This document shows positions 34,713-53,092 of a stretch of 64,000 bases of DNA, one piece after another. The position numbers and the translations under genes were made by a program. Under the pieces are notes generated by a model, which worked only from the letters and a program-made list of their open reading frames with translations, was not told the DNA's origin and did no database searches. Each line of letters begins with the position of its first letter. Positions within the stretch are counted from its first letter, which is position 1. This DNA comes from Shinella granuli. GTDB lineage: Bacteria > Pseudomonadota > Alphaproteobacteria > Rhizobiales > Rhizobiaceae. Where the stretch lies: positions 1 to 64,000 of the forward strand of contig NZ_SLVX01000021.1 of NCBI RefSeq assembly GCF_004341885.1. The letters are read 5' to 3'.

Positions 34713-34759
34713 CTGATCTCCTCTGATTTGCACATATTAGCAGATCGTGGGCGCCGCAC

Positions 34760-34826
34760 GCAATCGATTGCAAAAATCCTTGACCAAACGCAAGTGCCGT
34801 GATACCTCATCCTCGCAATCGATTGC
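34760..34826 (+). promoter_or_regulatory. LacI-type double operator flanking a promoter
   Basis: Two identical perfect palindromes GCAATCGATTGC at 34760-34771 and 34815-34826, 55 bp apart. Between them are TTGACC (34780-34785), a 17-bp spacer and TACCTC (34803-34808), so the second operator falls at about the transcription start. This is the classic looping-repression layout for LacI proteins. The first site also lies in the lacI-type gene's own leader. Confidence 0.75.
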
Positions 34827-34996
34827 ACGAAGGCTTGGAGGAGCGCTTGTGCGTCGAGCAAGGGCCGGGTCGTCATGGAGGACGGCCGGGCAAATACCCT
34901 CAATGATCCCGGACGGGAATGCGGGAAAGCCGCAGACCTCCGTTTGCCGGGCACGGAATTCAGCCGGGCGCCCCGAGAGGGGTGCCTGGTCGCGGA

Positions 34997-35010
34997 TGCA
35001 ATCGATCGCT
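34997..35010 (+). promoter_or_regulatory. Third LacI-type operator
   Basis: TGCAATCGATCGCT, an imperfect copy of GCAATCGATTGC, located 16 bp before the binding-protein start codon and just upstream of its GGGAGGA RBS. It could strengthen repression or act as a roadblock. Confidence 0.6.
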
Positions 35011-35026
35011 AACGGGAGGAAGGCGT

Positions 35027-36304
35027 ATGAGATTGAATACTTTGCTCGCGGCAACGGCCGCGGCGGCGATAACCGCAGGCGCGGCGCAGGCCGAGACCTT
35101 GAAGATCGGGGCCTCGCTGCCGATCACGGGCGGACTGTCGGTCAGCGGCGAGAAACACAAGCGGGGCTACGAGCTCTGCACGAAGCTGATCAACGACGCG
35201 GGCGGCATTCTCGGCCGGCAGGTCGAACTGATCGTCAGCGACAACCGGTCGGACACGGCGACCGCGATCAACCAGTATGAGCGCTTCATCAATGTCGACA
35301 AGGTCGACGCCGTCTACGGCACCTTTTCGAGCCGGCTGACCTTCCCGGTCGCCAGCATCCTTTCGAAATACAACATGGTGCACGCCATTCCCTCGGGCGG
35401 CGCCTTGCGCATCTACGAACAGGGCTACAAGAACCTGTTCTACTTCCAGGTCAACGCCGCCGAATATACCGGCAAGGACGTGGCCGCGGTGATCAAGCAG
35501 CTCATCCCGGCGGGCGAGGCGCCGAAGAGCGCAGCCGTGGTCTCGGCCGACGACTTCTTCGCCAATGCCATCGAGGCGGGCCTGCTCGGACAGAAGGTGA
35601 AGGATCCGGCGACCGACAAGGAGATCGCCGACCTGGCGCCCGGCTATCTTTCCGATGCGGGCATCGAGGTGCTGATGCAGGAGAAGTGGCCGGAGGAAGG
35701 CTTCAACGACTGGCTGAACCTTGCCAATTCGATCAAGCGCTCCGGCGCCGAGATGGTCATCGGCCTGACGGCCTCGGCGGAAGAGGCCGTGCAACTGACG
35801 CGCAGCCTCAAGACCGTCGGCGCCACGCCCAAGCTGGTCTATCTCAGCCAGGGCGCTCAGACGGAGTTCGTCGAGGGCGTCGGCAAGGAAGCGGCCGATG
35901 GCGTGCTGATCCACACCACCTGGCACAAGGACGTGCCGTTCGACAGCACGCTGGCCGGCAAGCCGTTCAGCAATGCCGACTTCGTCAAGGCCTTCACCGC
36001 CGAATACAATGTCGAGCCGGACGAGGACAGCGCCATTCCGTTCGCCGTCTGCCAGGGCATCGAGCAGGCGATCCTCGGGGCGGGCACCACCGACAATGCC
36101 AAGATGGGCGAATGGCTGCACGCGCGCACCAAGGACGATCCCGTCCGCACGGTGCTCGGCCGCTTCTCCTGGGATGAGGTCGGCCTGCCGGTGGAGAAAT
36201 CCCACATCATGACGCAGTGGCAGAACGGCGACCTGACATTCGTCTACCCGACCGGCGAATTCGAAGGCGTGTCGCCCTTCAGCTACCCCAAGAACGGGTT
36301 CTGA
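35027..36304 (+). CDS. Branched-chain-type ABC transporter substrate-binding protein
   Basis: 425 residues with a Sec signal peptide (MRLNTLLAATAAAAITAGAA, cleaved after AQA). The periplasmic-binding domain (Peripla_BP_6 type) shows LKIGASLPITGGLSVSGEKH, then YELCTKLINDAGGILGRQVE and VYGTFSSRLTFPVASI. This family feeds LivFGHM-like transporters for amino acids, urea, amides or aromatic acids. Given the downstream catabolic genes, an aromatic or heteroaromatic acid is the likely ligand. First gene of the operon. Confidence 0.9.
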   Translation: MRLNTLLAATAAAAITAGAAQAETLKIGASLPITGGLSVSGEKHKRGYELCTKLINDAGGILGRQVELIVSDNRSDTATAINQYERFINVDKVDAVYGTFSSRLTFPVASILSKYNMVHAIPSGGALRIYEQGYKNLFYFQVNAAEYTGKDVAAVIKQLIPAGEAPKSAAVVSADDFFANAIEAGLLGQKVKDPATDKEIADLAPGYLSDAGIEVLMQEKWPEEGFNDWLNLANSIKRSGAEMVIGLTASAEEAVQLTRSLKTVGATPKLVYLSQGAQTEFVEGVGKEAADGVLIHTTWHKDVPFDSTLAGKPFSNADFVKAFTAEYNVEPDEDSAIPFAVCQGIEQAILGAGTTDNAKMGEWLHARTKDDPVRTVLGRFSWDEVGLPVEKSHIMTQWQNGDLTFVYPTGEFEGVSPFSYPKNGF

Positions 36305-36311
36305 GAAGACA

Positions 36312-36351
36312 GGCGGCGGAAGGGTGCCCCCGGGGCGTCCTTCCCGCCGCC
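36312..36351 (+). other. Hairpin after the ABC binding-protein gene
   Basis: GGCGGCGGAAGG (36312-36323) pairs with CCTTCCCGCCGCC (36339-36351, one bulged C); the inner GCCCC/GGGGC extends the stem. No U-tract. Located between the binding-protein gene and the ATPase gene, as in the tct, met and tau operons. Confidence 0.65.
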
Positions 36352-36388: not shown

Positions 36389-37135
36389 ATGCTTGAAGTG
36401 AAGAACCTCTGTAAGCATTTCGGCGGCATCAAGGCCGTCGACGGTGCCACGTTCACGGTCGAGAAGGGCGCGATCACCGCCCTGATCGGCCCGAACGGCG
36501 CCGGAAAGACGACTGCGTTCAATTGCATCAGCCGGACGGCGGCGCCGACGTCGGGCGAGGTCTGGCTCGACGGCGAGCGGATCGACCACCTCCGGCCGCA
36601 CAAGATCACGGCCAAGGGCCTCAGCCGGACCTTCCAGATCTCGCGCAATCTCGGCGACATGACGGTGATCGAGAACGTCATCGTCCAGTCCAGGGTCGAT
36701 GGTCTGCGCGGCCTGTTCCGCCCGGCCATGTCGCGGGAGGAAAAGGACAAGGCGATGTCGATACTCGACTTCCTCGGCATCACCCGCATCGCCCACGAGG
36801 ATGGCCACAATCTCTCCTACGGCCAGAAGAAGCTCATGGACCTCGCCGCGCTGCTGATGTCCGACCCCAAGATCATCCTGCTCGACGAACCGGCCGGCGG
36901 GGTCAACCCGTCGCTGATGGAGGAGATCGTCGGCCATATCCGCGCGCTCAACGACAAGGGCCTGACGGTGCTGATCGTCGAGCACAACATGGACCTGATC
37001 ATGCGGCTCTCGCATAAGGTCGTGGTCATGGCGCACGGCAAGGTCATCTGCGCCGGCACGCCCGATGTGGTGCGCAAGGATCCCCACGTGCTCGATGCCT
37101 ATCTCGGCGGCGTCCTGGAAGACGAGGCGGCCTGA
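36389..37135 (+). CDS. ABC transporter ATP-binding protein (LivG-like)
   Basis: 248 residues. Walker A GPNGAGKTTAFNC, SRTFQISRNLGDMTVIENV Q-loop region, signature NLSYGQKKLMDLAALL (variant LSYGQ as usual in LivG), Walker B IILLDEPAGGVNPSLMEEI, H-loop IVEHNMDLIM. RBS GGAAGAGGA. One of two ATPases of the importer; coupled to the next gene by a TGATG overlap. Confidence 0.92.
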   Translation: MLEVKNLCKHFGGIKAVDGATFTVEKGAITALIGPNGAGKTTAFNCISRTAAPTSGEVWLDGERIDHLRPHKITAKGLSRTFQISRNLGDMTVIENVIVQSRVDGLRGLFRPAMSREEKDKAMSILDFLGITRIAHEDGHNLSYGQKKLMDLAALLMSDPKIILLDEPAGGVNPSLMEEIVGHIRALNDKGLTVLIVEHNMDLIMRLSHKVVVMAHGKVICAGTPDVVRKDPHVLDAYLGGVLEDEAA

Positions 37136-37863
37136 TGACGAAGCTTCTGGAGGTCACCAACATCACCGCCGGCTACGGCGACGGCCCCGCCATCATCGAT
37201 GGGGCACACCTGACCGTCGAGCCCGGCAAGGTCCATTGCATCATCGGCCCGAACGGCGCCGGAAAGTCGACGCTGCTCAAGGCGATCTGCGGCATGCTGT
37301 CCATCCGCAAGGGCGACGTCGTGTTCAAGGGCGAGCGGCTGAACGGGCTTCGCCCCGACCAGATCCTGCGCAAGGGCATCTGTTTCGTGCCGCAGGAGCG
37401 CGCACTGTTTGCGAAGATGACCGTGCGCGAGAATCTGCGCATGGGCGGCTTCATCCTCGATGACAAGAAGGAGCTGGAGCGCCGCATCGAGGGCATCCTG
37501 GAACGCTTCCCGATCCTTCGCGAGCGGGCCGACCAGCATGCCGGCACCATGTCCGGCGGCCAGCAACAGACGCTCGCCATGGCCCGCACGCTCATCATCA
37601 AGCCCGACATCGTCATGCTCGACGAACCGTCCCTCGGCCTGGCGCCGAAGGTCGTCCAGGAGATGTTCGACATCATGAAGATGATGTCGGCGGAAGGCGT
37701 CACCGTCCTCCTGGTCGAGCAGAACGCGCTGATGGGGCTCAAGAACGCCGACTGGGGCGTCGTGCTCGATCTCGGCCGCACGCTGTTCGAGGGCCCGGCC
37801 GCCACGGTGCTGGCCGATCCGCGCATCCAGGAACTTTACCTCGGCGGCAAGAAGGCCGCCTGA
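37135..37863 (+). CDS. ABC transporter ATP-binding protein (LivF-like)
   Basis: 242 residues. Walker A GPNGAGKSTLLKAI, CFVPQERALFAKMTVRENLR Q-loop, signature TMSGGQQQTLAMARTL, Walker B VMLDEPSLGLAPKVVQEM, H-loop VEQNALMGL. Typical LivF length. Second ATPase of the importer. Confidence 0.92.
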   Translation: MTKLLEVTNITAGYGDGPAIIDGAHLTVEPGKVHCIIGPNGAGKSTLLKAICGMLSIRKGDVVFKGERLNGLRPDQILRKGICFVPQERALFAKMTVRENLRMGGFILDDKKELERRIEGILERFPILRERADQHAGTMSGGQQQTLAMARTLIIKPDIVMLDEPSLGLAPKVVQEMFDIMKMMSAEGVTVLLVEQNALMGLKNADWGVVLDLGRTLFEGPAATVLADPRIQELYLGGKKAA

Positions 37864-37875: not shown

Positions 37876-38754
37876 ATGGCAGAGATATTGCAGATACTGA
37901 TTCTGGGCCTGGCGCTCGGCGGCGTCATCGCCCTGATGGGCTCCGGCCTGTCGCTGGTCTTCGGCGTGATGCGCATCGTCAATCTAGCCCATCCCGCGCT
38001 GATCATCGGCGGCGCCTACATCACCTATCTGGCGTTCAAGGCCTTCGACATCGATCCGATCGCCATGCTGCCCGTCGCAGCCGTCACCATGGCGGCCGTC
38101 GGCGTGGTGCTCTACCGGCTGCTGTTCCAGCGCGAGGCCAGGAGCGCCAAATATTCCGAGATGACGGTGCTGCTCACCTTCGCGCTGGCGATGATGGTGG
38201 AAGGGCTGCTCGGCAGCCTCTTCACCAACACCCAGCGGGTGACGTCGCCCGACTACGCCACCGCCGCTTTCTTCATCGGTGATGTCTTCATCCCCAAGGG
38301 GCAGCTCTATGCCGGCCTCGTCTCGCTGGCGATCATCGCGGCGCTCTCCCTGTTCCTCAAATATTCGCGGCTCGGCTATGCCATCCGTGCCACCACGCAG
38401 AACCGCGAGGCGGCGGAACTGCTGGGCGTCAACGTGCAGTTCATCAGCGTGCTCGCCTTCGCCATCGGCATCGGCCTTGCGGGCGCTGCCGGATCGCTGG
38501 TCAGCTTCGTGTTCAGCTTCTTTCCGGCCAAGCACTGGGAATGGATCGCCATGCTGATGTCGGTGGTGGTGCTCGGCGGCATGGGCAGCATCCTCGGCAC
38601 GGTGGTCGGCGCGCTCATCCTGTCCGTGGTCGCCGCCTTTGTCGGCACCTGGATCGGTGCGACCTGGTCGACGCTGACCTTCTTCCTCGCTCTTTTCATC
38701 ATTCTGCTGGTCCGGCCCCAGGGGCTGTTCGGCGAAAAACCGGAGATGGCATGA
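37876..38754 (+). CDS. ABC transporter permease (LivH-like)
   Basis: 292-residue polytopic permease. Conserved family stretches are GGVIALMGSGLSLVFGVMRI, VNLAHPALIIGGAYI, LGYAIRATTQNREAAELLGV and the C-terminal VRPQGLFGEKPEMA. Overlaps the next permease gene by 4 bp. Confidence 0.92.
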   Translation: MAEILQILILGLALGGVIALMGSGLSLVFGVMRIVNLAHPALIIGGAYITYLAFKAFDIDPIAMLPVAAVTMAAVGVVLYRLLFQREARSAKYSEMTVLLTFALAMMVEGLLGSLFTNTQRVTSPDYATAAFFIGDVFIPKGQLYAGLVSLAIIAALSLFLKYSRLGYAIRATTQNREAAELLGVNVQFISVLAFAIGIGLAGAAGSLVSFVFSFFPAKHWEWIAMLMSVVVLGGMGSILGTVVGALILSVVAAFVGTWIGATWSTLTFFLALFIILLVRPQGLFGEKPEMA

Positions 38755-39797
38755 TGACCGTCACCCTTCAGGACTCCAGCGCCAGCGCCGTCATCGAGGC
38801 CCGCCGCACATACAACGAGAAACTGTCGCGCAAGACCGACCAGACCCGGGCGACCTGGTTCCCGCTCGCTTTGCTTGCTTTGCTCGCCGCGCTGCCGCTG
38901 CTGCAATTCGTCGGCAACTACAATTACGTGCTGCACCTGGTGCTCTTTACCGCCTCCTATGTGGCAATGGCATCGAGCTGGAACATCCTCGGCGGCTTTG
39001 CCGGCTATGTCTCGCTCGGCCATGCCGTGTTCTTCGGCGTCGGGGGATACTTTTCCGGCATGCTCCTGGCACGCTACGGCATTTCCACGCTGATCACCGC
39101 GCCGCTTGCCGGCCTCGTCGCGGCGGCCATCGGCTATGGCGTGGGCCTGGTCACACTCAAGGTGCGCGGCCCGAGCTTCATCATCTCGTCGATCGCCCTT
39201 CTGATGATCGCCCGCATCCTGTTCGACAACTGGCACTTCATCGGCGGCGCCAACGGCCTCACCCTGCCGACGAACGATCTGACGGTGCAGTGGGCCAAGC
39301 TGCCCTACTACTATGCGATGCTGGCGATCGCGGCCTTCACCGTCTGGTCGGCCTACAAGATCAAGCATTCGAAGTTCGGCCTCGGCCTGCGCGCCCTTTC
39401 CAAGGACGAAATCAAGGCGGAAAGCGCCGGCATCGACACGCGCTTCTACAAGGTCGTGGCCTTCGCGCTCTCGGCCTTCTTCGTCGGCATGGCCGGCGCG
39501 GTGTGGGGCGAGTACCTGACCTATCTGCGTCCGAACATCTTCCTGCTCATCCTGGTCTCGGCCAACATGGTGCTGATGTGCATCCTCGGCGGCAAGGGCA
39601 CGATCGCCGGGCCGGTGATCGGTGCGATCCTGATCGTCGCGCTCAACGAGCTCTTCGTCGCCACGATGGGGGCTTCCGAAATCAACATCCTCGGCACCGG
39701 CCTGGTGATGGCGATCGGCCTGATGTTCTTCCCGCTCGGACTGGTCGGAACCCTGGCCAGAAGCGGAAAGCTGCCCCGCATCCTCAACTGGGACTAG
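38751..39797 (+). CDS. ABC transporter permease (LivM-like)
   Basis: 348-residue permease with an N-terminal hydrophilic tail of about 40 residues and then eight or nine hydrophobic segments. Motifs: GGFAGYVSLGHAVFFGVGGY, FGLGLRALSKDEIKAESAGI, ILGGKGTIAGPVIGAILI. ATG at 38751 overlaps the livH-like stop (ATGATG); 38754 is an equally possible start. Completes the importer. Confidence 0.9.
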   Translation: MMTVTLQDSSASAVIEARRTYNEKLSRKTDQTRATWFPLALLALLAALPLLQFVGNYNYVLHLVLFTASYVAMASSWNILGGFAGYVSLGHAVFFGVGGYFSGMLLARYGISTLITAPLAGLVAAAIGYGVGLVTLKVRGPSFIISSIALLMIARILFDNWHFIGGANGLTLPTNDLTVQWAKLPYYYAMLAIAAFTVWSAYKIKHSKFGLGLRALSKDEIKAESAGIDTRFYKVVAFALSAFFVGMAGAVWGEYLTYLRPNIFLLILVSANMVLMCILGGKGTIAGPVIGAILIVALNELFVATMGASEINILGTGLVMAIGLMFFPLGLVGTLARSGKLPRILNWD

Positions 39798-39859: not shown

Positions 39860-40645
39860 ATGCCGGAATTCGTGCTCTACAACGCGCCGCAGTCCACATG
39901 CAGCCAGCGCGTCCGCTATGTCCTTCACGCCAAGGGCAGGGTCTTCGAGGAACACCGGCTCGATCTCTTCAAGGGAGATCAGCTCAAGCCCGAATACCTC
40001 GCGATCAACCCGAACGGCGTGGTCCCGACCCTCTTGCACGATGGCGCCCCGGTCACCGATTCCGCCGTCATCATGGAATATCTGGAGGACATTTTCGGTG
40101 ACGTGGCGCCGCTGAGGCCCGGCGATCCGCTCAAGGTGGCGCAGATGCGCGCGATGCTGCGCTTCATCGACGAGGTGCCGACGCCGGCAATCCGCGTGCC
40201 GTCCTACAACCTCGCCTTCCTGCCGCACTTCCAGGCGATGGACGACGAGGCGTTCCAGGCGCTGTGCGACAGCAAGCCCCTGCGCCGTGAATTCCTCATG
40301 AAAATGGGGCGCACCGGGTTCCCGAAGGCCGAGATGGACGAGGCCCTGGCGCGCCTGCAGCGCGGCATGGACCGCATGGCAACATGGCTTGCCGCCAGCG
40401 GCGGGCCCTGGCTGATGGGCGCGGATCTCAGCCTTGCCGATATCGCGATCATGCCCGTCATCGTGCGGATGGACGACATCCGGCTTGCCGGAATGTGGCG
40501 CGAAGCGCCCGCCATCGGCCGCTGGCTCGAAAGGATCCGGCAAACGCCCGCCTTCTCCGCGACCTATTATCACGGCTCGCTGTTGACCGAGAAATACCCG
40601 CATCTCGCCGCCGCCGCCAGGCGGCCCGAACCCATGGACGCATGA
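39860..40645 (+). CDS. Glutathione S-transferase family protein
   Basis: 261 residues. N-terminal thioredoxin-fold domain with LYNAPQSTCSQRVRYVLHAK (an S-x-C-S-x-R-V-R pattern like the zeta class) and NPNGVVPTLLHDGAPVTDSAVIMEYL split over the cis-Pro and ES motifs. The C-terminal helical domain carries MGADLSLADIAIMPVIVRMD. In a ring-cleavage operon it could isomerise a cis ring-fission product or do reductive thiol chemistry; neither is proven. Stop overlaps a possible start of the next gene. Confidence 0.83.
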   Translation: MPEFVLYNAPQSTCSQRVRYVLHAKGRVFEEHRLDLFKGDQLKPEYLAINPNGVVPTLLHDGAPVTDSAVIMEYLEDIFGDVAPLRPGDPLKVAQMRAMLRFIDEVPTPAIRVPSYNLAFLPHFQAMDDEAFQALCDSKPLRREFLMKMGRTGFPKAEMDEALARLQRGMDRMATWLAASGGPWLMGADLSLADIAIMPVIVRMDDIRLAGMWREAPAIGRWLERIRQTPAFSATYYHGSLLTEKYPHLAAAARRPEPMDA

Positions 40646-40662
40646 ACGCAGTGGAGGATGAA

Positions 40663-41589
40663 ATGGACTATGTCAGCACCCCGCCCAAGCTCATCACGAA
40701 GGAAGCCGACGTGACGCCCACCGTTCTTGCGGCGATGGCGAACACCGACAATCCCCGGCTGAAGGAAATCATGACCGTGCTGGTGGACCACCTCCATCAG
40801 TTCATCCTCACGACGCGCCCGACGGAGGAGGAATTCGAATATGCCCTGCGCTGGATCGTCGAGATCGGCCAGCGGACGAACGAATTCCACAACGAGGTGG
40901 TGCTTGCCGCCGACGTGCTCGGCGCGTCCACGCTGATCGACCTCATCAACAATGACGGCATGCAGGGCGAGACGATGTCGGCGCTGCTCGGGCCGTTCTA
41001 CCGCGGCGATGCGCCGGTCTGCGCGAACGGCGACTGTATCGCCCGCTCGCAAACGCCCGGCGCCACGCTTTTCTTCTCCGGCAGGGTGATCGGGACCGAC
41101 GGCGCGCCGATCGCCGGGGCCATGCTCGATGTGTGGCAGGCGTCGCCCGTCGGCCTCTACGAGAACCAGGATGAAACCCAGGAGGATTGCAACCTTCGCG
41201 GCAAGTTCATCAGCGCGGCCGATGGCCGGTATCATTTCCGCTCGGTCAAGCCCGCCGGTTATCCCGTGCCGACCGACGGTCCCGTCGGCGTGCTGCTGCG
41301 GGCCCAGAACCGCGAGCCGATGCGGCCGGCGCACGTCCATTTCATCGTGTCCGCGCCGGGACACAAGACCCTGATCACGCAGATCTTCTCCGACACGCCC
41401 GAGGCGCTGGCGGCGGATGTCGTGTTCGGCGCCAAGCAGCAGATCGTCGGCAACTTCGTCATGCATACCGAGCCGCACCCCGATTATCCGGATGCGAACC
41501 TGCCCTTCTATACCTGCGAATACGATTTCAAGCTGGTGCCCGGCACATCGACGCTCCCCGTCCCGCCGATTTCGGGAAAGAAGAGCTGA
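40663..41589 (+). CDS. Intradiol ring-cleavage dioxygenase (hydroxyquinol/catechol type)
   Basis: 308 residues with an N-terminal dimerisation domain (about 20-110) and the Fe(III) catalytic domain. All expected ligands are seen: Tyr166 (GLYENQD), Tyr200 (PAGYPVP), His224 and His226 (RPAHVHF), plus Arg179 (NLRGKF). Such enzymes cut catechol, chlorocatechol or hydroxyquinol between the hydroxylated carbons. Length fits the hydroxyquinol 1,2-dioxygenase group. Start at 40663 has GGAGG 8 bp upstream; ATG at 40642 is an alternative. No muconate cycloisomerase or classical maleylacetate reductase is nearby. Confidence 0.9.
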   Translation: MDYVSTPPKLITKEADVTPTVLAAMANTDNPRLKEIMTVLVDHLHQFILTTRPTEEEFEYALRWIVEIGQRTNEFHNEVVLAADVLGASTLIDLINNDGMQGETMSALLGPFYRGDAPVCANGDCIARSQTPGATLFFSGRVIGTDGAPIAGAMLDVWQASPVGLYENQDETQEDCNLRGKFISAADGRYHFRSVKPAGYPVPTDGPVGVLLRAQNREPMRPAHVHFIVSAPGHKTLITQIFSDTPEALAADVVFGAKQQIVGNFVMHTEPHPDYPDANLPFYTCEYDFKLVPGTSTLPVPPISGKKS

Positions 41590-41592
41590 GCC

Positions 41593-42354
41593 ATGGCTGC
41601 ACAAGACTCCCGTCATCCGCTTGCGGGCAAGGTGGCCGTCGTCGTCGGGGGCTCCGGCGGCATCGGTCGCGAGACCTGCCGGATGCTTGCCGCCGCCGGT
41701 GCCACCGTCGTCGTCGGCTACCGTTCGGGCAGGCAGAAGGCGGAGGAGATCGTCGGCGAACTGGCCGGCGAAGGCCATGTCGCGCTGCCGGTCTCCATTG
41801 AGGAGACCGCGACGATCGAGGCGTTCCGGGATGGAGTGCTGGAAAGGCTCGGCCGGGTGGACATCCTGGTCAACACGGCAGGCGTCACCGAACCGGTGGC
41901 GCATGGCGACCTCGATGCCCTGACCGACGCGATGATCGACCGCATCTTCATCAACAACTGGCGCGGCGTCTTCGCCACGATCCGCGCCTTCGCACCGGCG
42001 CTGAAAGCAAGTGGCGACGGCCTGATCGTCAACGTCTCGTCGATCGCCGCCTTCACCGGCATCGGCTCGAATGTCGCCTATTGCGGCGCCAAGGCGGGCC
42101 TCGACATCATGGCAAATTCGCTCGGCCGGGCGCTCGCCCCCGAGATCCGCGTCATGGTGGTCTCGCCCGGGGCCGTCGATACGCAATTCGTGCCCGGCCG
42201 CGGCAGGGAATTTGCCGACAAGGTCGCCGCGACCACCCCGCTCAAGCGGATCACCAGCCCGCTGGACGTCGCCGAGGCGATCGTCTCCTGCGCCACGCAT
42301 CTGAAGTTTTCGACCGGCAGCCGGATCGTCGTCGATGGAGGAAGGCACCTGTAA
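41593..42354 (+). CDS. SDR family oxidoreductase in the ring-cleavage operon
   Basis: 253 residues. Cofactor motif VVGGSGGIGRETCRMLAAAG, Asn of NTAGVTEP, and catalytic Ser, Tyr and Lys in NVSSIAAFTGIGSNVAYCGA with KAG following. Probably oxidises a dihydrodiol or alcohol intermediate, or reduces a keto acid of the pathway. 3 bp after the dioxygenase and overlapping the next gene by one base (TAATG), so tightly cotranscribed. Confidence 0.87.
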   Translation: MAAQDSRHPLAGKVAVVVGGSGGIGRETCRMLAAAGATVVVGYRSGRQKAEEIVGELAGEGHVALPVSIEETATIEAFRDGVLERLGRVDILVNTAGVTEPVAHGDLDALTDAMIDRIFINNWRGVFATIRAFAPALKASGDGLIVNVSSIAAFTGIGSNVAYCGAKAGLDIMANSLGRALAPEIRVMVVSPGAVDTQFVPGRGREFADKVAATTPLKRITSPLDVAEAIVSCATHLKFSTGSRIVVDGGRHL

Positions 42355-43232
42355 TGCAGCCGAAAGTCATCATCACCTGCGCCGTGACCGGCAACCTGAC
42401 GACACGGGAAAACCATCCCGGCCTGCCGGTGACGCCGGAAGAGATCGCCAATGCCTGCCTCGAAGCGGCGGATGCCGGGGCCGCCATCGCCCACATCCAT
42501 GTGCGCGATCCCGAAACGGCGAAGCCCTCAATGGAGCTGAAGCACTACCGCGAGGTGGTCGAGAGGATTCGGGCGAAGAACAGTGCCCTGATCCTCAACG
42601 TGACCACGGGACCGGGAGGGCGCTATCACCCGAGCGATGAAAACCCGGCGGTGGCCGGCCCGCGCACGACGCTGATGCGGCCGGAAAAGCGCGTCGAGCA
42701 CATCACCGCGCTGAAGCCCGACATCGCCACGCTCGACCTCAACACCATGACCTTCGGCAACGAGGTGGTGATCAACACTCCCGGCAATGTGAAGATCATG
42801 GCCGACCTCATCAACGCGGCCGGCTCCAAGCCGGAGCTCGAAGTCTTCGATACCGGCCACATCGTGCTCGCGCAGGACCTGATGAAGGCCGGCGTGCTGA
42901 CGTCGCCGGCGATGTTCACCATCGTCACCGGCGTCAAATACGGCTTTCCCTCCACCACCGACGTCATGGCCACCGCCGCGCGCATGCTGCCGCGTGATGC
43001 CGTCTGGACGGGCTTCGGCGTCGGCCGGATGTCATTCCCGATGGCGATGCAGGCCTATCTGCTCGGCGGGCATGTCCGCGTCGGCCTTGAGGACAATTCC
43101 TACATCGCCAAGGGCGTGCTGGCGAAGGGCAATGGCGAACTCGTGGAGCGCGCCCGCGACCTCATCGAGAAACTCGGCGGGCAGATTGCCGGTCCGTCGG
43201 AGGCCAGGGAAATCTTGGGGCTTGCGGCCTGA
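42354..43232 (+). CDS. Beta-keto acid cleavage enzyme (BKACE / 3-keto-5-aminohexanoate cleavage family)
   Basis: 292-residue TIM-barrel Zn enzyme. Zn ligands His47 and His49 in AIAHIHVRDPE and the Glu of HVRVGLEDN are present, along with LNVTTGPGG, LDLNTMTFGNE and GVKYGFPST. BKACEs condense a beta-keto acid with acetyl-CoA, giving acetoacetate and a new acyl-CoA; known members accept 3-keto-5-aminohexanoate, beta-ketoadipate and dehydrocarnitine. Here it follows an intradiol dioxygenase, so a beta-ketoadipate-like acid is an attractive substrate (inference). Confidence 0.9.
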   Translation: MQPKVIITCAVTGNLTTRENHPGLPVTPEEIANACLEAADAGAAIAHIHVRDPETAKPSMELKHYREVVERIRAKNSALILNVTTGPGGRYHPSDENPAVAGPRTTLMRPEKRVEHITALKPDIATLDLNTMTFGNEVVINTPGNVKIMADLINAAGSKPELEVFDTGHIVLAQDLMKAGVLTSPAMFTIVTGVKYGFPSTTDVMATAARMLPRDAVWTGFGVGRMSFPMAMQAYLLGGHVRVGLEDNSYIAKGVLAKGNGELVERARDLIEKLGGQIAGPSEAREILGLAA

Positions 43233-44610: not shown

Positions 44611-44634
44611 AACCGAATGAACGGGCCGAAAGCC

Positions 44635-45214: not shown

Positions 45215-46282
45215 ATGAGCGAGACGGAAAACAGGTTGCTGAGCGTGGTGGAACACTGGCTGCCGCGCATGGAGGTCGCTGGCATCCCTTCGGCGACGGC
45301 GAAGGCGGTGATCGACAGTGCCGGCGTCTGGGAGAACTGGCTTGCGGCCTGGAGCGCCGAAGGCGACCGCCATGCCGGGATGGGCGAGGCGGCCCTTGCG
45401 CGGGGCCGCAGGATCACCGCCGGCGAGGCATTCGCCCGCGCCAGCCTGTTCTACCACTTCGGCCAGTTCATGGCCTTCGACGACCTTGACGCGAAGGAGC
45501 GCGTCGCGGCGCTGAAGGTGGCGACATTCCGCAAGGCCGCGCCGCTGCTGGAGCTGCCCGGCGAACCGGTCGAGGTGCCGTTCGAAGGCGGCGTGCTGCG
45601 CGGCTATCTCCGCCGGCCGGCAGGGCAGGGGCCGCATCCGCTGGCGCTCATCATCCCCGGCTCGGATTCCACCAAGGAGGAGTTCCCCGCGTTCGAACGG
45701 CATTTCCTCCTGCGCGGCCTGGCGACGCTGTCGCTCGACGGTCCGGGACAGGGTGAGGGGCGGTCGCATGGGCATCTGCGGGCCGATATCGCGCCGGCCG
45801 TCGCCGCGACTATCGAGGCGATCCGCGACCGGCCGGATCTTACGGGCGCCGTCGGCCTGGTCGGCATGGCCTTTGGCGGCTTCCTGGCGCTCCGGGCGGC
45901 GGCGACACTGGAAGGGCTCGCCGCCGTCGTTTCCATCAACGGCTTTCATGACCTCGGGGCGCTCTGGCCGACCCTGCCGAAGGTCTATCAGGACAACATG
46001 ACCTTCGCGCTGGGTGGTGACGACGTCATCGAAAGCGCCCGTCGTTTCACCCTGGCGGGTATCGAAGGGCCGGCGGTGCCCGCGCTCATCCTGCATGGCG
46101 GCCGCGACAGGATCTTTCCGCCGTCCGAAGCGCAGAAATGCGCCGATATCTGCCGGGCCGGTGCGGAACTGCACGTCTTTCCCACCGGAAACCACGTCTG
46201 CAACAACATTCCCTGGATGTACCGGCCGCTCGTCGCCGACTGGCTCGCGGAGCGGCTGAAGGCCGAGCGCAGCCAGTCGTAG
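45215..46282 (+). CDS. Alpha/beta-hydrolase with Ser-to-Ala nucleophile, DHPON-hydrolase-like
   Basis: 355 residues. An N-terminal helical cap (1-115) is followed by the alpha/beta core. The motif order IIPGSDSTKEEF, LDGPGQGEG, GMAFGGFLAL, NGFHDLG, LHGGRDRIF and TGNHVCNN matches the family containing 2,6-dihydroxypseudooxynicotine hydrolase, a C-C bond hydrolase. The nucleophile elbow, normally G-x-S-x-G, reads GMAFGG: Ala219 (GCC at 45869-45871) replaces Ser. Asp298 and His327 of the triad remain. It is the last gene of the first catabolic unit. Reaction unknown. Confidence 0.85.
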   Translation: MSETENRLLSVVEHWLPRMEVAGIPSATAKAVIDSAGVWENWLAAWSAEGDRHAGMGEAALARGRRITAGEAFARASLFYHFGQFMAFDDLDAKERVAALKVATFRKAAPLLELPGEPVEVPFEGGVLRGYLRRPAGQGPHPLALIIPGSDSTKEEFPAFERHFLLRGLATLSLDGPGQGEGRSHGHLRADIAPAVAATIEAIRDRPDLTGAVGLVGMAFGGFLALRAAATLEGLAAVVSINGFHDLGALWPTLPKVYQDNMTFALGGDDVIESARRFTLAGIEGPAVPALILHGGRDRIFPPSEAQKCADICRAGAELHVFPTGNHVCNNIPWMYRPLVADWLAERLKAERSQS

Positions 46283-46470: not shown

Positions 46471-47715
46471 ATGATACACGCCGATGACGGGATATTGTCC
46501 CAGGAACAGCGCCTGATGCGCGACAGTTGCCGATCGTTTGTCGACGATGTGGTGACGCCGTTCATCCGGTCGAACTGGCAGCGCGAATGGGACATGAGCC
46601 CGGGCGAACGGCTGCCGGGCTCGATCCTCGAAGGCGCCGAGGCGATCGGCATCCGCACCCTCGGCGTGCCGGAGGAATTCGGCGGCATCGACCTCGACCG
46701 GGAGACCGAGGTACGGACCTTCGCCCTGATCGCCGAGGAGATCGCCCGCGGCGATTCGGGCCTTGCCGACAAGCTGGTGCAGAACTGGAAGGTCTCCATC
46801 GTCATCCGCCAGTTCGCCGCGAAACACCTGCAGGAAAAGTGGTTCCCGCGCCTGCTGGAGGACCCGAAGTTCCTCCTGGCGCATTGTCTCACCGAACCCA
46901 GGGGCGCCTCCGACCGCTGGCTGCCCTACAATGTCCCGGAAGCCTCCATGCACACCAGGGCGGTGCTGGACGGCGACCACTGGGTCATCAACGGCCGCAA
47001 GCAGTTCATCTCGAACGGTTTCGACGCCAGCCTCTATGTCGTCTATGCCAACACCGATCCTTCCGTCGGCATGCTGCAGGGCACGTCGAGCTTCCTGGTT
47101 CCCCGCGAAACGCCGGGCCTGACCGTCACCAAGTGCAACGAGACGATGGGCTGCCGCTTCATGAACAACGGCGAGCTGGTCTTCGAGGATTGCCGTGTCC
47201 CGGCCGACCACCTGCTCGTCAAGAGCACGGCGCTGGCCTCCGCCGGCCAGTATTTCCGCGCCGGCAAGATCATCCAGGCGGCCAAGAATCTCGGCGTCGG
47301 CGTCGCCTGTTTCGAGCGCACGGCGGACTATGTCCAGAACTATGTCCAGGGCGGGCGCATCCTCATCAAGCACCAGGCCGTGGCGCTGCGGCTCGCGGAC
47401 ATGGCGACGCGCATCGAGGCCGTGCGCTCGCTGGTGGAGCGGGCGTCGAAGGCGGTGGACGAAGCGCATCCGGATGCCGACATCCTGTGCAACATGGCCA
47501 AGGTCTACGCGTCGGAGGAGATCATGAAGGTCGCGACCCATGCGCTGGAGCTTCACGGCGGCAACGGCGCGATGCTCGAATTCGGCATCGAGAAGCTGTT
47601 CCGCGATGCCGCGATCTTCCTGCACATGGATGCGACGGTCGACGTCAGCCGCATGAAGATCATCAAGAACATGTTCCCCGCCACCGCCGGCAAATATGCC
47701 GGTCCGGAAACCTGA
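46471..47715 (+). CDS. Acyl-CoA dehydrogenase with Asp at the catalytic-base position
   Basis: 414 residues with the three ACAD domains: helical N-domain, beta middle domain ([28 protein letters not shown]) and helical C-domain ([20 protein letters not shown]). The segment aligned to the usual Y-E-G-T catalytic Glu reads [10 protein letters not shown], so Asp387 replaces Glu. FAD and ETF contacts appear normal, and etfBA follow directly. Likely oxidises an acyl-CoA or alicyclic-CoA intermediate. AAGGGGAGCG RBS. Confidence 0.88.
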
Positions 47716-47785: not shown

Positions 47786-48535
47786 ATGAAGATACTGGTT
47801 GCGGTGAAGCGGGTTGCCGATCCCAATGTCAAGGTGCGTGCCCTGGCGGACGGTTCGGGCGTCGACCTTGCGAATGTCAAGATGACGATGAACCCGTTCG
47901 ACGAGATCGCCGTCGAGGAGGCGGTCCGCCTGAAGGAGGCCGGGCGGGCGAACGAGATCGTCGTCGTGTCGATCGGCCCGGAAAAATCGGCCGAAACCCT
48001 GCGCACGGCCCTCGCGATGGGAGCGGATCGCGGCCTGCTGGTCCGCACGGAGGCGACGGTCGAGCCGCTCGCCGTCGCCAAGATCCTGAAGGCCGTCGCC
48101 GAGGCCGAAAAGCCCGACGTCATCATTACCGGCAAGCAGGCGATCGACGACGACGCCAACCAGACCGGCCAGATGCTGTCGGCGTTGCTGGGATGGGGCC
48201 AGGGCACGTTCGCCTCGAAGCTCGTCGTCGGCGACAAGGCGATCGAGGTCACCCGCGAGATCGACGGCGGCCTGCAGACGGTCAGCCTGGCGCTCCCCGC
48301 GCTGGTCACGGCCGACCTGAGGCTCAACGAGCCGCGATACGCCTCGCTGCCCAACATCATGAAGGCAAAGAAGAAGCCGATCGACGAACGCACGCCCGCC
48401 GACTACGGCGTGGCCGTCGAGCCGCGGCTGACGGTCGTGCGGGTGCACGAGCCGGCAACTCGCAAGGCCGGCATCAAGGTCGGCTCGGTCGGTGAGCTTG
48501 TCGAACGGTTGCGCATGGAAGCAGGAGTTCTCTGA
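47786..48535 (+). CDS. etfB: Electron transfer flavoprotein beta subunit
   Basis: 249 residues: [40 protein letters not shown], the AMP-binding region [20 protein letters not shown] and the docking helix [20 protein letters not shown]. Accepts electrons from the upstream acyl-CoA dehydrogenase together with EtfA. Overlaps etfA by one base (TGATG). A standard housekeeping-type EtfB by length and motifs. Confidence 0.95.
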
Positions 48536-49485
48536 TGACCATTCTTGTTCTGGCAGAGCATCACGATACGCAGCTCGACGAGGCCACCGCCAAGGCGGTC
48601 TCGGCCGCAGGGCGGATGGGCGGCGAGATCCACGTCCTCGTCGCGGGGTCCGGCTGCCGGGCGGCGGCCGAAGCGGCGGCGGGCCTTGCGGGCGTCGCCC
48701 TGGTCCTCCTTGCGGACGCCCCCTCCCTGTCGAACCGGCTCGCGGAGCCGGTGGCGGCCCTGGTCGTCGGCCTTGCGAGCGGCTACGACGCCATCCTCGC
48801 GCCCTCGACCACCAGCGGCAGGAACATCCTGCCGCGCGTCGCCGCGCTGCTCGACGTGATGCAGATATCCGACGTCATCGCGGTCGACGGGCCGGACCTG
48901 TTCCAGCGCCCGATCTATGCGGGCAACGTGATCCAGACCGTGCGGTCCACGGACGCGAAAAAGGTGCTGACCGTCCGCGCATCTTCCTTCCCCGCCGCCT
49001 CTATCGCCGCGGCGGCAGCCCCGATCGAAACCGTCGCAATCCCGGAAGACCCCGGGCGCTCGACCTTTGTGCGGAGCGAATTGTCACGGTCCGAGCGTCC
49101 GGAACTGGCGGGGGCGCGGATCGTCGTATCGGGCGGGCGGGCGCTGGCCTCCGCCGAAAACTTCGAGACCGTGCTGGCGCCGCTGGCCGATACGCTGGGC
49201 GCGGCGATCGGCGCGAGCCGCGCGGCCGTCGATGCCGGCTATGTCTCGAACGATCTCCAGGTCGGCCAGACGGGCAAGATCATTGCGCCAGACCTCTACA
49301 TCGCCTGTGGCATTTCCGGGGCGATCCAGCATCTTGCAGGCATGAAGGATTCCAGGGTGATCGTCGCGATCAACAAGGATCCCGATGCGCCGATCTTCCA
49401 GGTCGCCGATTATGGCCTGGTGGCGGATCTGTTCGAGGCCGTGCCGGAGCTTCACACGGCGGTTGCCGCGGAGGCGAGGGCTTAG
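48535..49485 (+). CDS. etfA: Electron transfer flavoprotein alpha subunit
   Basis: 316 residues. C-terminal FAD domain is highly typical: [50 protein letters not shown] and [20 protein letters not shown]. Forms the FAD/AMP heterodimer with EtfB and passes electrons to ETF-ubiquinone oxidoreductase. A remnant of that oxidoreductase gene lies at 53134. Confidence 0.95.
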
Positions 49486-49530: not shown

Positions 49531-50523
49531 ATGGCCAAGGCAGTGAACAAGAAGACGGCGCCTCCTCGACCGGATCCGGCCGAGGAGGATCGCGCCGGCA
49601 CTGCCCCGTTCCGCTCCTACGCGCTCGACAGGTCCGACAGCCCGCGCTTCCACATCCGGCTGGTGGAGAACACCCAGCGGCTCTATCCCGCCCACAAGCA
49701 CGACTATTTCCAGATCCTCTATTTCCTGTCGGATTCGCCGGCGATCCGGATCGGGTTGACGTCGCACAAGCCCAAGGCCGGCTCCACCTATTTCATCGCG
49801 CCGATGGTGCCGCACCAGATCCGGTTCGACTACGCGACACGCTGCATCGTCGCCTATTTCGACCTCGATTTCCTCCGCCCCGGCATCACCCGGTCCTATC
49901 CGATGGCGGAGCTGGTGCGGCTGGCGCCGGAACTGACCCCCTTCGCCTGGCAGAACCATGTGAACTTCGATCTCGATGCGGCACAGAGCGAGCGGACGGA
50001 GCGGGCGATCGGCGCGATGATCGACCAGCACCGATCCGAACGCATCGGCGCGATGGAGATCGTGCGTGCCGAGCTGACGCTGATGCTCGCCACCCTCTGC
50101 CAGGATTACGAGGCCGACTTCGCCGAGCTGTCGAGGACGCTGCCGGTGGTCGGCCGCGACAGCGGCCACATGCGCCGCATCGCCGAGTTCATCGGCGAGA
50201 ACTACACGCGCGGCCCGAGCCTCGACGAGGCCTCCGCCGCCGTGTGTCTTTCCAAGAGCCGGCTCTGCGCACTGATCCGCCAGTATACCGGGACGAGCTT
50301 CCAGGTGCTGATCCGCGAAATGCGCATCGAGGATGCGCGCGAGCGCCTGGTGCTGACCGACGACACTATCGGCCAGATCGCTTACCGTGTCGGCTACAAC
50401 GACGAGAAGTATTTCCTCCGGGCGTTCAAGAGTTCGGCGGGGATGACGCCGAGTGCCTACAGGCTGAAACGGGCCACGGAAAACCGGGCCTCTCCCGAGA
50501 CCGCAACGGGACGCAAGTCATGA
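49531..50523 (+). CDS. AraC family regulator inside the catabolic cluster
   Basis: 330 residues. N-terminal cupin-like effector domain (about 30-140: YPAHKHDYFQILYFLSD, STYFIAPMVPHQIRFD) and C-terminal double HTH (EASAAVCLSKSRLCALIRQY; GQIAYRVGYNDEKYFLRAFK). RBS CAGGAGCG. Located between etfA and the molybdenum hydroxylase genes and coupled to the next gene by ATGA. Probably activates the second catabolic unit in response to a pathway metabolite. Confidence 0.88.
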   Translation: MAKAVNKKTAPPRPDPAEEDRAGTAPFRSYALDRSDSPRFHIRLVENTQRLYPAHKHDYFQILYFLSDSPAIRIGLTSHKPKAGSTYFIAPMVPHQIRFDYATRCIVAYFDLDFLRPGITRSYPMAELVRLAPELTPFAWQNHVNFDLDAAQSERTERAIGAMIDQHRSERIGAMEIVRAELTLMLATLCQDYEADFAELSRTLPVVGRDSGHMRRIAEFIGENYTRGPSLDEASAAVCLSKSRLCALIRQYTGTSFQVLIREMRIEDARERLVLTDDTIGQIAYRVGYNDEKYFLRAFKSSAGMTPSAYRLKRATENRASPETATGRKS

Positions 50524-50996
50524 GCTCTTCCATCGCATTCCAGCTCAACGGATCGGCGGCGCAGGTGGACGATGCCGGCGACGAACCGCTTCTGTTCGTG
50601 CTGCGCAACCGGCTCGACCTCAAGGCGACCCATTTCGGCTGCGGGCTGGAGCAGTGCGGCGCATGCGTGGTCAGCGTCGACGGGCAGGCGCGCTATTCCT
50701 GCACGCTGCCGATGTCCGCGCTGGCCGGGGCGGAGGTCACGACCCCCGAGGCGCTGCGTGACGATCCCGTCGGGGTGGCGCTGCTCGAAGCCTTCGAGGC
50801 GGAACAGGCCGGCCAGTGCGGCTATTGCATCTCCGGCATCCTGATGCGCATCCACGCATTGTTCAAGACGGAGCGTCGGCCCGGCCGCGCGGCAATCCTC
50901 GCCGCGCTCGACAAGCATCTGTGTCGCTGCGGGGCGCATGGCAGCATCCTGCGCGCCGTCGAGCGCGCCGCGGCCCGTCTCGGCGGGGAGGCGTGA
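50520..50996 (+). CDS. Molybdenum hydroxylase, [2Fe-2S] small subunit
   Basis: 158 residues. Plant-type ferredoxin cluster CGLEQCGACVVSVDGQARYS (then C) and second helical cluster GQCGYC with CRCGAHGSI, as in XdhC/CoxS/NicA/IorA. Carries electrons from the Mo subunit encoded downstream. No FAD (CoxM-type) subunit gene is present, as in isoquinoline 1-oxidoreductase and nicotinate dehydrogenase. GTGA overlap with the next gene. Confidence 0.92.
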   Translation: MSSSIAFQLNGSAAQVDDAGDEPLLFVLRNRLDLKATHFGCGLEQCGACVVSVDGQARYSCTLPMSALAGAEVTTPEALRDDPVGVALLEAFEAEQAGQCGYCISGILMRIHALFKTERRPGRAAILAALDKHLCRCGAHGSILRAVERAAARLGGEA

Positions 50997-50998
50997 GC

Positions 50999-53092
50999 GT
51001 GGACAACGTGCTTCCGAAGAGCCTCCAGGACAATCCCGAGCTGGGCCGCTGGATTTCCCTCGACGCGCCAGGGGTCGTCGGCATCCGTTCGGGCAAGGTC
51101 GAGCTCGGCCAGGGCATCCTCACGGCCCTTGCCCAGATCGCGGCCGATGAACTCGCGGTCGATCCCGCGCTGGTCGCGCTTGCCCCCTGCGATACCGACC
51201 GGTCGCCGGACGAGGGCATCACCGCCGGCAGCCAGTCCGTCGAGGTTTCGGGCGCATCGATCCGCATGGCGGCGGCGCAGGCGCGCGCGGCCCTCCTCGA
51301 CGCTGCGGCGGTCCGCCTCGGCGTCGACACCGCCGGCCTGTCCTGCCGGGGCGGGAGCATCCTTCTCGACGGCGCACCGACGGGGCTCGACCTCTGGTCG
51401 CTCGCCCCCGATGTCGACTGGCGGCAGCCTGTCAGCGGCAACGTGCCCGTGCGATCCGTCGGCGCCTATTCCGCCGTCGGCGCCAGCCATCCGCGCATCG
51501 ACATGGCGCCGAAGCGCGGCGGCGCCGGTTTCATCCACGACCTTGCCCTGCCGGGGCTCCTGCATGCCCGGGTCGTCCGCCAGCCGTTCCGGCTTGCCCG
51601 CCTCGCCCATGTCGATGACGCATGGCTGCAGCGCCGCCATCCCGGCATCACGGTCCTGCGGAAGAACGATTTCCTCGCCCTTGCGGGACCGGACGAATAT
51701 GGCGTTCACGCCGCACATGCCGAAGCGGACAGGTTCACCACCTGGGAAGAGGTGCCCGGCCTCTGGCGGCCGGCGGAAACGGCGGGGGAGAAGGTCATCC
51801 GGCTCGGCGCGGCAACGCCGTCCGTCGGGACGGGCGGCATCGACGTGCGCTATTCGCGGGCGCATGTCGCCCATGCGTCGATCGGTCCGTCCTGCGCACT
51901 TGCCCGGTTCGATGCCGGCCGCTTGACGGTGTGGAGCCATTCGCAGGGCATTTTCCCGCTCCGCGCGCAGATAGCCGGATGCCTCGGGCTTCAACCGTCC
52001 GCGGTGCGCGTCATTCATGCGCATGGCGCCGGCTGCTACGGCCACAACGGCGCCGACGACGCGGCGCTCGATGCGGCCATCGTTGCGTTGGAGCTGCCGG
52101 GCCGGCCGGTGCGCATAATGTGGTCGCGCGAGGACGAGCTCAGCCGTGGCCCACTGGGGGCCGCCATGTCGACCGGGATCGAGGCCGGGATCGACGCGGC
52201 CGGCAGGGTGGCGTCTTGGCGGCTGTCGGTGCTGAGCGAACCGCATGCCCAGCGCCCGGGTTTCGGCGGCCATGTCAATCTCAGTTCGGCCGAAGCGCTC
52301 GACAGCACCCGCCTGCCCGGCAAGGTCGAGGACCTGCCCGATGCCGCCGGCGGCGGCGCTGCGCGAAACGCGGTGGCGATCTACGATTTCCCGGACCAGC
52401 AGGTGACCGTGCGGCTTGATACGCGCAGCCGTATCCGCACCTCCTCGCTGCGATCGCTGGGTGCGCATCTCAATGTCTTTGCCATCGAATCCGCCATGGA
52501 CGAGCTGGCGGACCTTGCCGGTGCCGATCCGCTGGATTTTCGCCTGCGCCATCTGAAGGATGAACGCTGCCGCGCCGTTCTCCAGGGCGCGGCGGAGATG
52601 AGCGGCTGGCCCGGCAGCCAGCCGGCAGGCGAGGGCCGGGCGCTCGGGATCGCTGCCGCCCGCTACAAGAACAAGGGCGCCTGGCTTGCCGCCGTTGCCG
52701 AGGTCTCGGTGGACGAGGAGGTCAGGCTGGAGCGGCTGTGGCTTTGCGTCGATGTCGGCCTCGTCATCAACCCGCAAGGCGCTCTCAGCCAGATCGAGGG
52801 CGGCGCCATCCAGGCGGCGAGCTGGACCCTCAAGGAAGAGGTGAAGGTCGAGGACGACCGGGTGCCGGCCTTCGACTGGAGCGCCTATCCGATCCTGAAA
52901 TTCTCCGAACTGCCGGAGATCGAGACGCGGTTCATCGTCGATCCGACACGGCCGCCCCTCGGCGCGGGCGAGGCCTCCCAGGGGCCTGTGGCCGCCGCCA
53001 TCGGAAACGCCGCATCCCGCGCGCTCGGCCTGAGGATGCGGGACCTGCCGCTGACGCGGGAGCGGCTGGTCGAGGCGCTGATGAGCGCCTGA
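50999..53092 (+). CDS. Molybdenum hydroxylase, molybdopterin-binding large subunit (NicB/IorB-like)
   Basis: 697 residues. Begins with the nicotinate/isoquinoline dehydrogenase pattern SLQDNPELGRWISLDA, GKVELGQGILTALAQIAADE, DEGITAGSQSVEVSG. Later: VIHAHGAGCYGHNGADDAAL, SRIRTSSLRSLGAHLNVFAI and the catalytic Glu in LGAGEASQGPVAAAIGNAAS. Lacks the cytochrome c domains of Pseudomonas NicB. It should hydroxylate an N-heterocycle or oxidise an aldehyde using water. GTG at 50999 has GGGGAGG at good spacing; GTG at 50993 overlaps the previous stop. Confidence 0.9.
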   Translation: MDNVLPKSLQDNPELGRWISLDAPGVVGIRSGKVELGQGILTALAQIAADELAVDPALVALAPCDTDRSPDEGITAGSQSVEVSGASIRMAAAQARAALLDAAAVRLGVDTAGLSCRGGSILLDGAPTGLDLWSLAPDVDWRQPVSGNVPVRSVGAYSAVGASHPRIDMAPKRGGAGFIHDLALPGLLHARVVRQPFRLARLAHVDDAWLQRRHPGITVLRKNDFLALAGPDEYGVHAAHAEADRFTTWEEVPGLWRPAETAGEKVIRLGAATPSVGTGGIDVRYSRAHVAHASIGPSCALARFDAGRLTVWSHSQGIFPLRAQIAGCLGLQPSAVRVIHAHGAGCYGHNGADDAALDAAIVALELPGRPVRIMWSREDELSRGPLGAAMSTGIEAGIDAAGRVASWRLSVLSEPHAQRPGFGGHVNLSSAEALDSTRLPGKVEDLPDAAGGGAARNAVAIYDFPDQQVTVRLDTRSRIRTSSLRSLGAHLNVFAIESAMDELADLAGADPLDFRLRHLKDERCRAVLQGAAEMSGWPGSQPAGEGRALGIAAARYKNKGAWLAAVAEVSVDEEVRLERLWLCVDVGLVINPQGALSQIEGGAIQAASWTLKEEVKVEDDRVPAFDWSAYPILKFSELPEIETRFIVDPTRPPLGAGEASQGPVAAAIGNAASRALGLRMRDLPLTRERLVEALMSA

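Follow-up and report, generated by a model that had tools for sequence, protein, structure and literature searches.

The hydroxyquinol branch of the beta-ketoadipate pathway pairs an intradiol dioxygenase with a maleylacetate reductase of the iron-containing alcohol dehydrogenase (Fe-ADH) type. Here, we compare this and other described systems with an island in Shinella granuli, located at positions 34,713 to 53,092 of the 64,000 nucleotides that we analyzed from contig NZ_SLVX01000021.1 (hereafter the window). Like the hydroxyquinol branch, the island has a dioxygenase of the hydroxyquinol group, from which similar ring-opening chemistry would be expected. Unlike it, the island encodes a medium-chain dehydrogenase/reductase (MDR), a beta-keto acid cleavage enzyme (BKACE), a short-chain dehydrogenase/reductase (SDR) and a cupin, and has no Fe-ADH, CoA-transferase or thiolase. 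In Ralstonia eutropha H16, a BKACE-family gene (COG3246) is likewise co-regulated with aromatic genes (catBCD) and was proposed to cleave beta-ketoadipate, but that set includes catBCD and a CatM/BenM-type regulator, and the section of the paper describing it does not mention an MDR-cupin-SDR operon (PMC6449761). The oxidative deoxyribose pathway of Pseudomonas simiae, as outlined in the relevant part of PMC6365646, also brings together an IorAB-like molybdenum dehydrogenase, an SDR and a BKACE. However, it acts on a sugar acid without ring cleavage, and includes a lactonase and a glycerate kinase rather than a dioxygenase, an MDR enzyme and a cupin. Finally, the island encodes a hydrolase that resembles, over most of its length, the DHPON hydrolase known from nicotine degradation (PDB 2jbw); the match scores 170.2 bits with a profile of five sequences. 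Parts of the system and the key BKACE idea are already known. We found no description of this gene set as a whole in the open-access literature, among the matches listed and judged by title or abstract start; as far as the literature searched shows, the set is apparently undescribed.

A preliminary description of the window had read the block as a degradation island for an aromatic or N-heteroaromatic compound. All the genes it named are present as open frames on one strand, with the LacI gene divergent, and occur in the same order at 98-100% amino-acid identity on plasmid pShin-01 of Shinella sp. HZN7 (Table 1). Pfam families matched include Dioxygenase_N/C, adh_short, BKACE, ADH_N/ADH_zinc_N, Hexapep, FrsA-like, acyl-CoA dehydrogenase, Fer2/Fer2_2, MoCoBD, GST, ETF alpha and beta, LacI, Peripla_BP_6, ABC_tran, BPD_transp_2 and the AraC helix-turn-helix; the scan covered LivK, LivG and LivH, and LivF and LivM are identified from the annotation of their HZN7 counterparts. 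From LivK through the large molybdenum subunit (MoL), adjacent genes overlap or lie at most 84 bases apart, except for a 188-base gap before the acyl-CoA dehydrogenase (ACAD) gene.

Using five aligned MDR sequences as the query, we scanned genome contigs and recovered 85 stretches that matched the pattern, 30 of which were confirmed as loci of the island (locus numbers below carry the prefix L). Genes were scored as present by tblastn at 45% identity (38% for LacI and the hexapeptide protein) and 45% coverage; layouts of open reading frames under-called genes that tblastn recovered. The hosts include Rhizobiaceae, Aminobacter, Paracoccus, Roseibium and a metagenome-assembled Dongia genome, and many of the loci come from close Rhizobiaceae, so the counts are not independent events. 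Some rows are weak: L058 ends with its contig before the dioxygenase, L059 (Burkholderia multivorans) has the MDR gene only, at 58% identity, and the contigs of L047 and L057 are short or cut. In all 28 loci that have the four genes, those for the dioxygenase, BKACE, MDR enzyme and cupin are in the same order, on one strand and within 6 kb. As this order is kept across genera, it reflects more than chance. The block consists of a core (dioxygenase, SDR, BKACE, MDR and cupin) and an accessory part. The preliminary description would be refuted by genes that do not travel together, and this refutation fails for the core. The hydrolase occurs in 15 of 30 loci, and the small (MoS) and large molybdenum subunits (MoL) in 11 and 10 of 30.

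More distant clusters in Skermanella, Bosea, Cupriavidus and Sinorhizobium RAC02 retain all five core genes, which are 45-67% identical; the Skermanella cupin gene is on the opposite strand, and some distant versions carry TRAP transporters in place of the Liv genes. Caballeronia has a distant version too, without an MDR match in the fetched stretch. Distances among the BKACE, cupin, ACAD and LacI proteins track those of the MDR enzyme (Spearman 0.78, 0.72, 0.76 and 0.73, respectively), as do those of MoS (0.82, or 0.72 on fewer loci); tracking is weaker for the dioxygenase (0.61), glutathione S-transferase (GST, 0.49), SDR (0.40) and hydrolase (0.36). Close MDR relatives are rare, occurring in 8 of 385 genomes of the class (E 1e-90) and 13 of 398 of the phylum (E 1e-80), the Shinella genome itself included. 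We rejected the MDR gene alone as a marker of the island, because 8 of 16 fetched stretches, these eight with MDR matches of 45-56% identity, gave no tblastn match to the dioxygenase or BKACE (L071, L073, L076, L078, L079, L080, L082 and L083). In Rhizobium leguminosarum RCAM0626 p_4 (L028), the MDR and hydrolase matches begin inside the proteins and both genes are unannotated; this copy may be decaying, or may contain assembly errors.

The block is a real regulon. Between LacI and LivK, the palindrome GCAATCGATTGC stands twice, and with one mismatch allowed the window contains three matches against 0.54 expected (3 were reached in 2 of 100 shuffles). These are the only two occurrences of GCAATCGWTTGC in the whole 6.59 Mb genome, and the reversed control pattern is absent. 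At least two copies are found in all 23 testable LacI-LivK gaps among the 30 loci, the first two being spaced by 54-57 bases in 20 gaps and by 115-116 in three. The operator also lies upstream of the dioxygenase gene in clusters without adjoining Liv genes (L027, L028, L057, L062, L072, L074, L077 and L087), and an exact copy is present in 26 of 28 genomes or records searched, although not every copy is at the island. Presumably, the LacI-family protein binds the GCAATCGATTGC operator. The reading of the block as an aromatic catabolic island under LacI, with the dioxygenase, MDR enzyme and BKACE as conserved core, was supported. The SDR match is situated beyond LacI in L042, L043 and L046, and in three Ensifer adhaerens loci (L029, L043 and L046, not L042) an extra tandem operator pair lies between LacI and the displaced SDR, which ties the SDR to the same regulon. 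There is no operator copy in the window before the ACAD or molybdenum genes, even at two mismatches; thus, the accessory part may answer to its own AraC-family regulator or be read through.

Two operator sites elsewhere have other neighbors. In Aminobacter aganoensis (genome G801, L134, 7105-11504), a lone off-island copy precedes genes for two PRK08204-like amidohydrolases, the first above and the second below the NCBIfam cut-off, and for an NMT1-like binding protein; this set is a possible extra member of the regulon. In genome G053 (L128, 9288-17420), a LivKGFHM-GST set and a pair of hydrolase paralogues, which differ in having Ala or Ser at the nucleophile position, face each other across operator copies, and the dioxygenase core is not in the fetched stretch.

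What, then, could the island degrade? The preliminary description attributed full iron ligands to the dioxygenase, and the four residues that we take to be the Tyr2-His2 ligands of intradiol enzymes (Y173, Y207, H231 and H233) are indeed the same in each of the 25 sequences aligned. PnpC, an unnamed intradiol enzyme and three dioxygenases, two for hydroxyquinol and one for 6-chlorohydroxyquinol, give the five best PDB matches, at 183.8-205.6 bits versus 127.9 for the best catechol enzyme. Asp91 aligns with Asp in all five; it is retained in 21 of 21 island-type enzymes and replaced by Gly in 4 of 4 sister enzymes adjoining hpaH-hpaI. Based on these comparisons, the enzyme probably belongs to the hydroxyquinol 1,2-dioxygenase group, and hydroxyquinol turnover is predicted. 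The sister enzymes (51-52% identity) are from Shinella sp. H4-D48 (L063), Bosea sp. 685 (L064), Methylobacterium nodulans (L066) and Microvirga sp. VF16 (L086). Their loci also contain AroQ and a TIM-barrel epimerase-like gene (L063, L066 and L086) or a shikimate-dehydrogenase-like gene (L064), and possibly represent a cyclitol or quinate-like route via a pyrogallol-type ring.

We put at about an even chance a LacI-repressed island for the opening of a triol ring, reduction by the MDR enzyme and cleavage by BKACE, with the accessory genes preparing the ring compound. The substrate would be imported by LivKGFHM and the dioxygenase would open a ring of the trihydroxybenzene kind, yielding a maleylacetate-type enone acid. 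Reduction of its C=C bond by the MDR enzyme could then give a beta-keto acid (in the simplest case 3-oxoadipate), which BKACE would convert with acetyl-CoA to acetoacetate and an acyl-CoA (in the simplest case succinyl-CoA). The window holds an extended version of the island, in which the hydrolase, ACAD with EtfBA and the molybdenum enzyme may prepare the ring compound from a precursor bearing a side chain, with the molybdenum enzyme oxidizing an aldehyde. Slightly below even, in our judgment, stands the broader proposal of an aerobic ortho-cleavage route not yet described: a polyhydroxylated ring opened by intradiol cleavage, the MDR enzyme in place of an Fe-ADH maleylacetate reductase, BKACE in place of CoA-transferase plus thiolase, an obligatory metal-less cupin and SDR, and a nucleophile-less hydrolase feeding the route, all under one LacI operator.

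BKACE scores 325.7 bits against PF05853 (cut-off 24.8), and H47, H49, E246 and D247, which presumably form its zinc site, are invariant in 30 of 30 sequences. Known BKACE-family structures ranked first for its structure model; the 50 structure matches listed did not include 9zsc, which phmmer placed closest in sequence. The MDR enzyme is quinone-oxidoreductase-like, at 115.9 bits to the PIG3 quinone-reductase model (under its cut-off of 296.8), and could reduce an enone. Action of BKACE on beta-ketoadipate is already published and is not new here: this acid is the substrate of one BKACE group in the part of PMC4922564 that relays Bastard et al. 2014, and the same reaction was put forward for catechol metabolism in the section of PMC6449761 cited above.

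The preliminary description considered maleylacetate reductase and CoA-transferase missing, a lack that BKACE could bypass. Both are absent from the block itself, but not apparently from the genome. Contig C18 (80500-99500, L067) has a second aromatic cluster comprising an intradiol dioxygenase, an Fe-ADH, Liv genes and another dioxygenase. The Fe-ADH is probably a maleylacetate reductase, although no curated model names it as such, and a dioxygenase and Fe-ADH pair of this hydroxyquinol-branch type also lies beside the island in L038 and L039. Two pcaI/scoA-family matches in the genome are above cut-off, one of them a subunit on contig C4 about 7 kb from two dioxygenase genes; this family also holds other CoA-transferases. 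With such genes elsewhere, BKACE probably fills no genomic gap, and we regard it as an unlikely substitute for a CoA-transferase absent from the genome. There are four other BKACE-family matches in the genome, one partial.

An ordinary hydroxyquinol route that is redundant and differently regulated, with BKACE and the MDR enzyme as non-orthologous replacements for CoA-transferase plus thiolase and maleylacetate reductase, would agree with the nearest solved relatives of the dioxygenase, with enone reduction as a plausible MDR activity and with the BKACE substrate group just mentioned. Nevertheless, we find it improbable, as it leaves the conserved SDR and cupin and, in Liv-type loci, the GST without a job. 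The conserved SDR and cupin together with the redundancy on C18 and C4 suggest either that the ring is not plain hydroxyquinol or that this island is regulated separately. We regard as rather unlikely that the same island handles a more hydroxylated or substituted ring (e.g., a tetrahydroxybenzene or a 5-substituted hydroxyquinol). In that case, the SDR and cupin would deal with the added oxygen or side chain ahead of the BKACE step, and the product would be an acyl-CoA other than succinyl-CoA. The recurrence of the SDR (28 of 30 loci) and cupin (29 of 30), the tandem operator of the displaced SDR in three of four Ensifer-type loci, and the second dioxygenase and Fe-ADH pair in the genome all favor such a ring, and in deoxyribonate catabolism an SDR produces the beta-keto acid on which BKACE acts, according to the part of PMC6365646 on this pathway. 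However, no sequence feature names the extra group, and Asp91 and the PDB matches suit hydroxyquinol itself.

The cupin reaches Cupin_2 only under the Pfam cut-off (23.4 vs 27.2 bits), and a sequence search of the PDB at E 0.1 gave it no match; we rejected a role based on fold, given many cupin-fold matches at similar Z and a mean pLDDT of 75 for the model. The best PDB match of the GST is LigF, followed by a maleylacetoacetate isomerase. Substrate identity from LivK was also rejected because its PDB matches are weak and mixed.

The accessory hydrolase has Ala219 in place of the Ser of the GxSxG motif in 15 of 15 aligned relatives, in agreement with the claim that it lacks the nucleophile and unlike DHPON hydrolase-type enzymes; D298 and H327 are kept, and five more distant homologues (26-38% identity) retain Ser. 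At 88% identity or more, it is present in only 4 of 21 genomes of the genus searched (including that of the window), and therefore the extended island is patchy. ACAD has the N-terminal, middle and C-terminal acyl-CoA dehydrogenase domains of Pfam. Its Asp387 is found in 8 of 8 sequences at a position matched by eye, presumably the place of the catalytic Glu in the YEGT-type motif. The hexapeptide protein scores under the curated gamma-carbonic anhydrase model NF050158 (168.7 vs 250 bits).

The molybdenum enzyme had been assigned the first step, hydroxylation of an N-heteroaromatic ring that the dioxygenase would then open. Its subunits do fall in the broad xanthine-dehydrogenase class, the hydrolase resembles an enzyme of nicotine breakdown, and PRK08204-type amidohydrolases recur near such islands, which leaves room for a nitrogen-bearing substrate. 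However, MoL was not found in 20 of the 30 loci (one of these, L057, has MoS at a contig end), an aldehyde dehydrogenase stands where the molybdenum enzyme would be in Shinella kummerowiae (L050), and the best PDB match of MoL is an aldehyde dehydrogenase. Furthermore, intradiol opening of a trihydroxypyridine would be expected to yield no beta-keto acid for BKACE. We therefore rejected the molybdenum enzyme as core ring activator in the leading reading and consider the N-heteroaromatic route very improbable, while the other proposed steps, by the dioxygenase, MDR enzyme and BKACE, correspond to the conserved core. Given the sparse occurrence of MoL and its replacement in one Shinella, aldehyde oxidation is likelier; IorAB-like enzymes are described as deoxyribose and vanillin dehydrogenases in the part of PMC6365646 concerned.

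Several observations weigh against the triol route proposed above. BKACE scores under the curated 3-oxoadipate:acetyl-CoA acetyltransferase model NF053568 (188.9 vs 350 bits). The SDR and cupin recur as constantly as BKACE, although a route for plain hydroxyquinol would have no use for either, and the C18 pair and pcaI/scoA-family gene would make such a route redundant. The core is not always accompanied by the accessory genes, and MoL distances barely follow those of the MDR enzyme (Spearman 0.04, rising to 0.20 when the cut L047 copy is left out). Two distant clusters (L069 and L070) matched the dioxygenase and MDR enzyme but not BKACE by tblastn, so the last step may differ in other clusters, and no exact operator occurs in the fetched stretches of seven Liv-less clusters (L053, L054, L060, L061, L081, L084 and L085).

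Elsewhere in the window, a repABC unit identifies this DNA as part of a secondary replicon, and genes of the homogentisate 1,2-dioxygenase and fumarylacetoacetase type lie at 16386-19499 on the plus strand. Downstream of the island, an operon on the minus strand (53253-59218) has E1, E2 and lipoamide-dehydrogenase (LpdA) genes and ACAD2, which is annotated as an acyl-CoA dehydrogenase in HZN7, yet matched no Pfam family at E 1e-8. Neither this operon nor SDR0 (32818-33591) was found in any of the 30 loci at the threshold used, where most flanks end nearby; a cut SDR0 copy is at the edge of L032, and the HZN7 stretch holds SDR0, ACAD2 and LpdA. These neighbors may lie outside the island.

Table 1. 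Features of the island and its surroundings in the window
Feature	Position	Strand	Support
repABC replication/partition genes	11654-15456	-	
LacI-family repressor, divergent from island	33669..34712	-	Pfam, HZN7 annotation; 24/30 loci
Operator copy 1, exact GCAATCGATTGC palindrome	34760..34771	.	
Operator copy 2, 55 bases after copy 1	34815..34826	.	
Weaker operator-like site, one mismatch	34998..35009	.	
LivK-type periplasmic binding protein	35027..36304	+	Pfam, HZN7 annotation; 23/30 loci
LivG ATPase	36389..37135	+	Pfam, HZN7 annotation; 22/30 loci
LivF ATPase	37135..37863	+	HZN7 annotation; 23/30 loci
LivH permease	37876..38754	+	Pfam, HZN7 annotation; 23/30 loci
LivM permease	38751..39797	+	HZN7 annotation; 23/30 loci
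Glutathione S-transferase (GST)	39860..40645	+	Pfam GST; 23/30 loci
Intradiol dioxygenase, hydroxyquinol 1,2-dioxygenase group (predicted), core	40642..41589	+	28/30 loci
SDR oxidoreductase, core	41593..42354	+	adh_short; 28/30 loci
Beta-keto acid cleavage enzyme (BKACE), core	42354..43232	+	29/30 loci
Quinone-oxidoreductase-like MDR enzyme, proposed enone reductase, core	43264..44268	+	30/30 loci by construction (search query)
Cupin without usual metal ligands (read by eye), core	44278..44610	+	29/30 loci
Hexapeptide protein, gamma-carbonic-anhydrase/PaaY type, accessory	44617..45177	+	6/30 loci
Alpha/beta-hydrolase, DHPON-hydrolase/FrsA type, Ala at nucleophile, accessory	45215..46282	+	15/30 loci
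Acyl-CoA dehydrogenase-family flavoprotein (ACAD), Asp387 in presumed place of usual Glu, accessory	46471..47715	+	8/30 loci
Electron-transfer flavoprotein beta subunit (EtfB), accessory	47786..48535	+	Pfam; 7/30 loci
Electron-transfer flavoprotein alpha subunit (EtfA), accessory	48535..49485	+	Pfam; 7/30 loci
AraC-family regulator within accessory part	49531..50523	+	Pfam; 7/30 loci
2Fe-2S subunit of molybdenum enzyme (MoS), accessory	50520..50996	+	11/30 loci
Molybdopterin subunit (MoL), proposed aldehyde oxidoreductase, accessory	50993..53092	+	10/30 loci

Newly found here are the operator, the division into core and accessory genes, and a subfamily of hydrolases in which Ala occupies the position of the catalytic Ser. 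Both this hydrolase and the Asp-bearing ACAD are conserved, and their families do not reveal what chemistry they catalyze. The clear operator means that the inducer and substrate of the regulon can be sought directly. If the proposed route is true, soil and root-associated Alphaproteobacteria would use a lower aromatic pathway whose genes carry only separate annotations, as dioxygenase, oxidoreductase or 'keto-aminohexanoate cleavage' genes.

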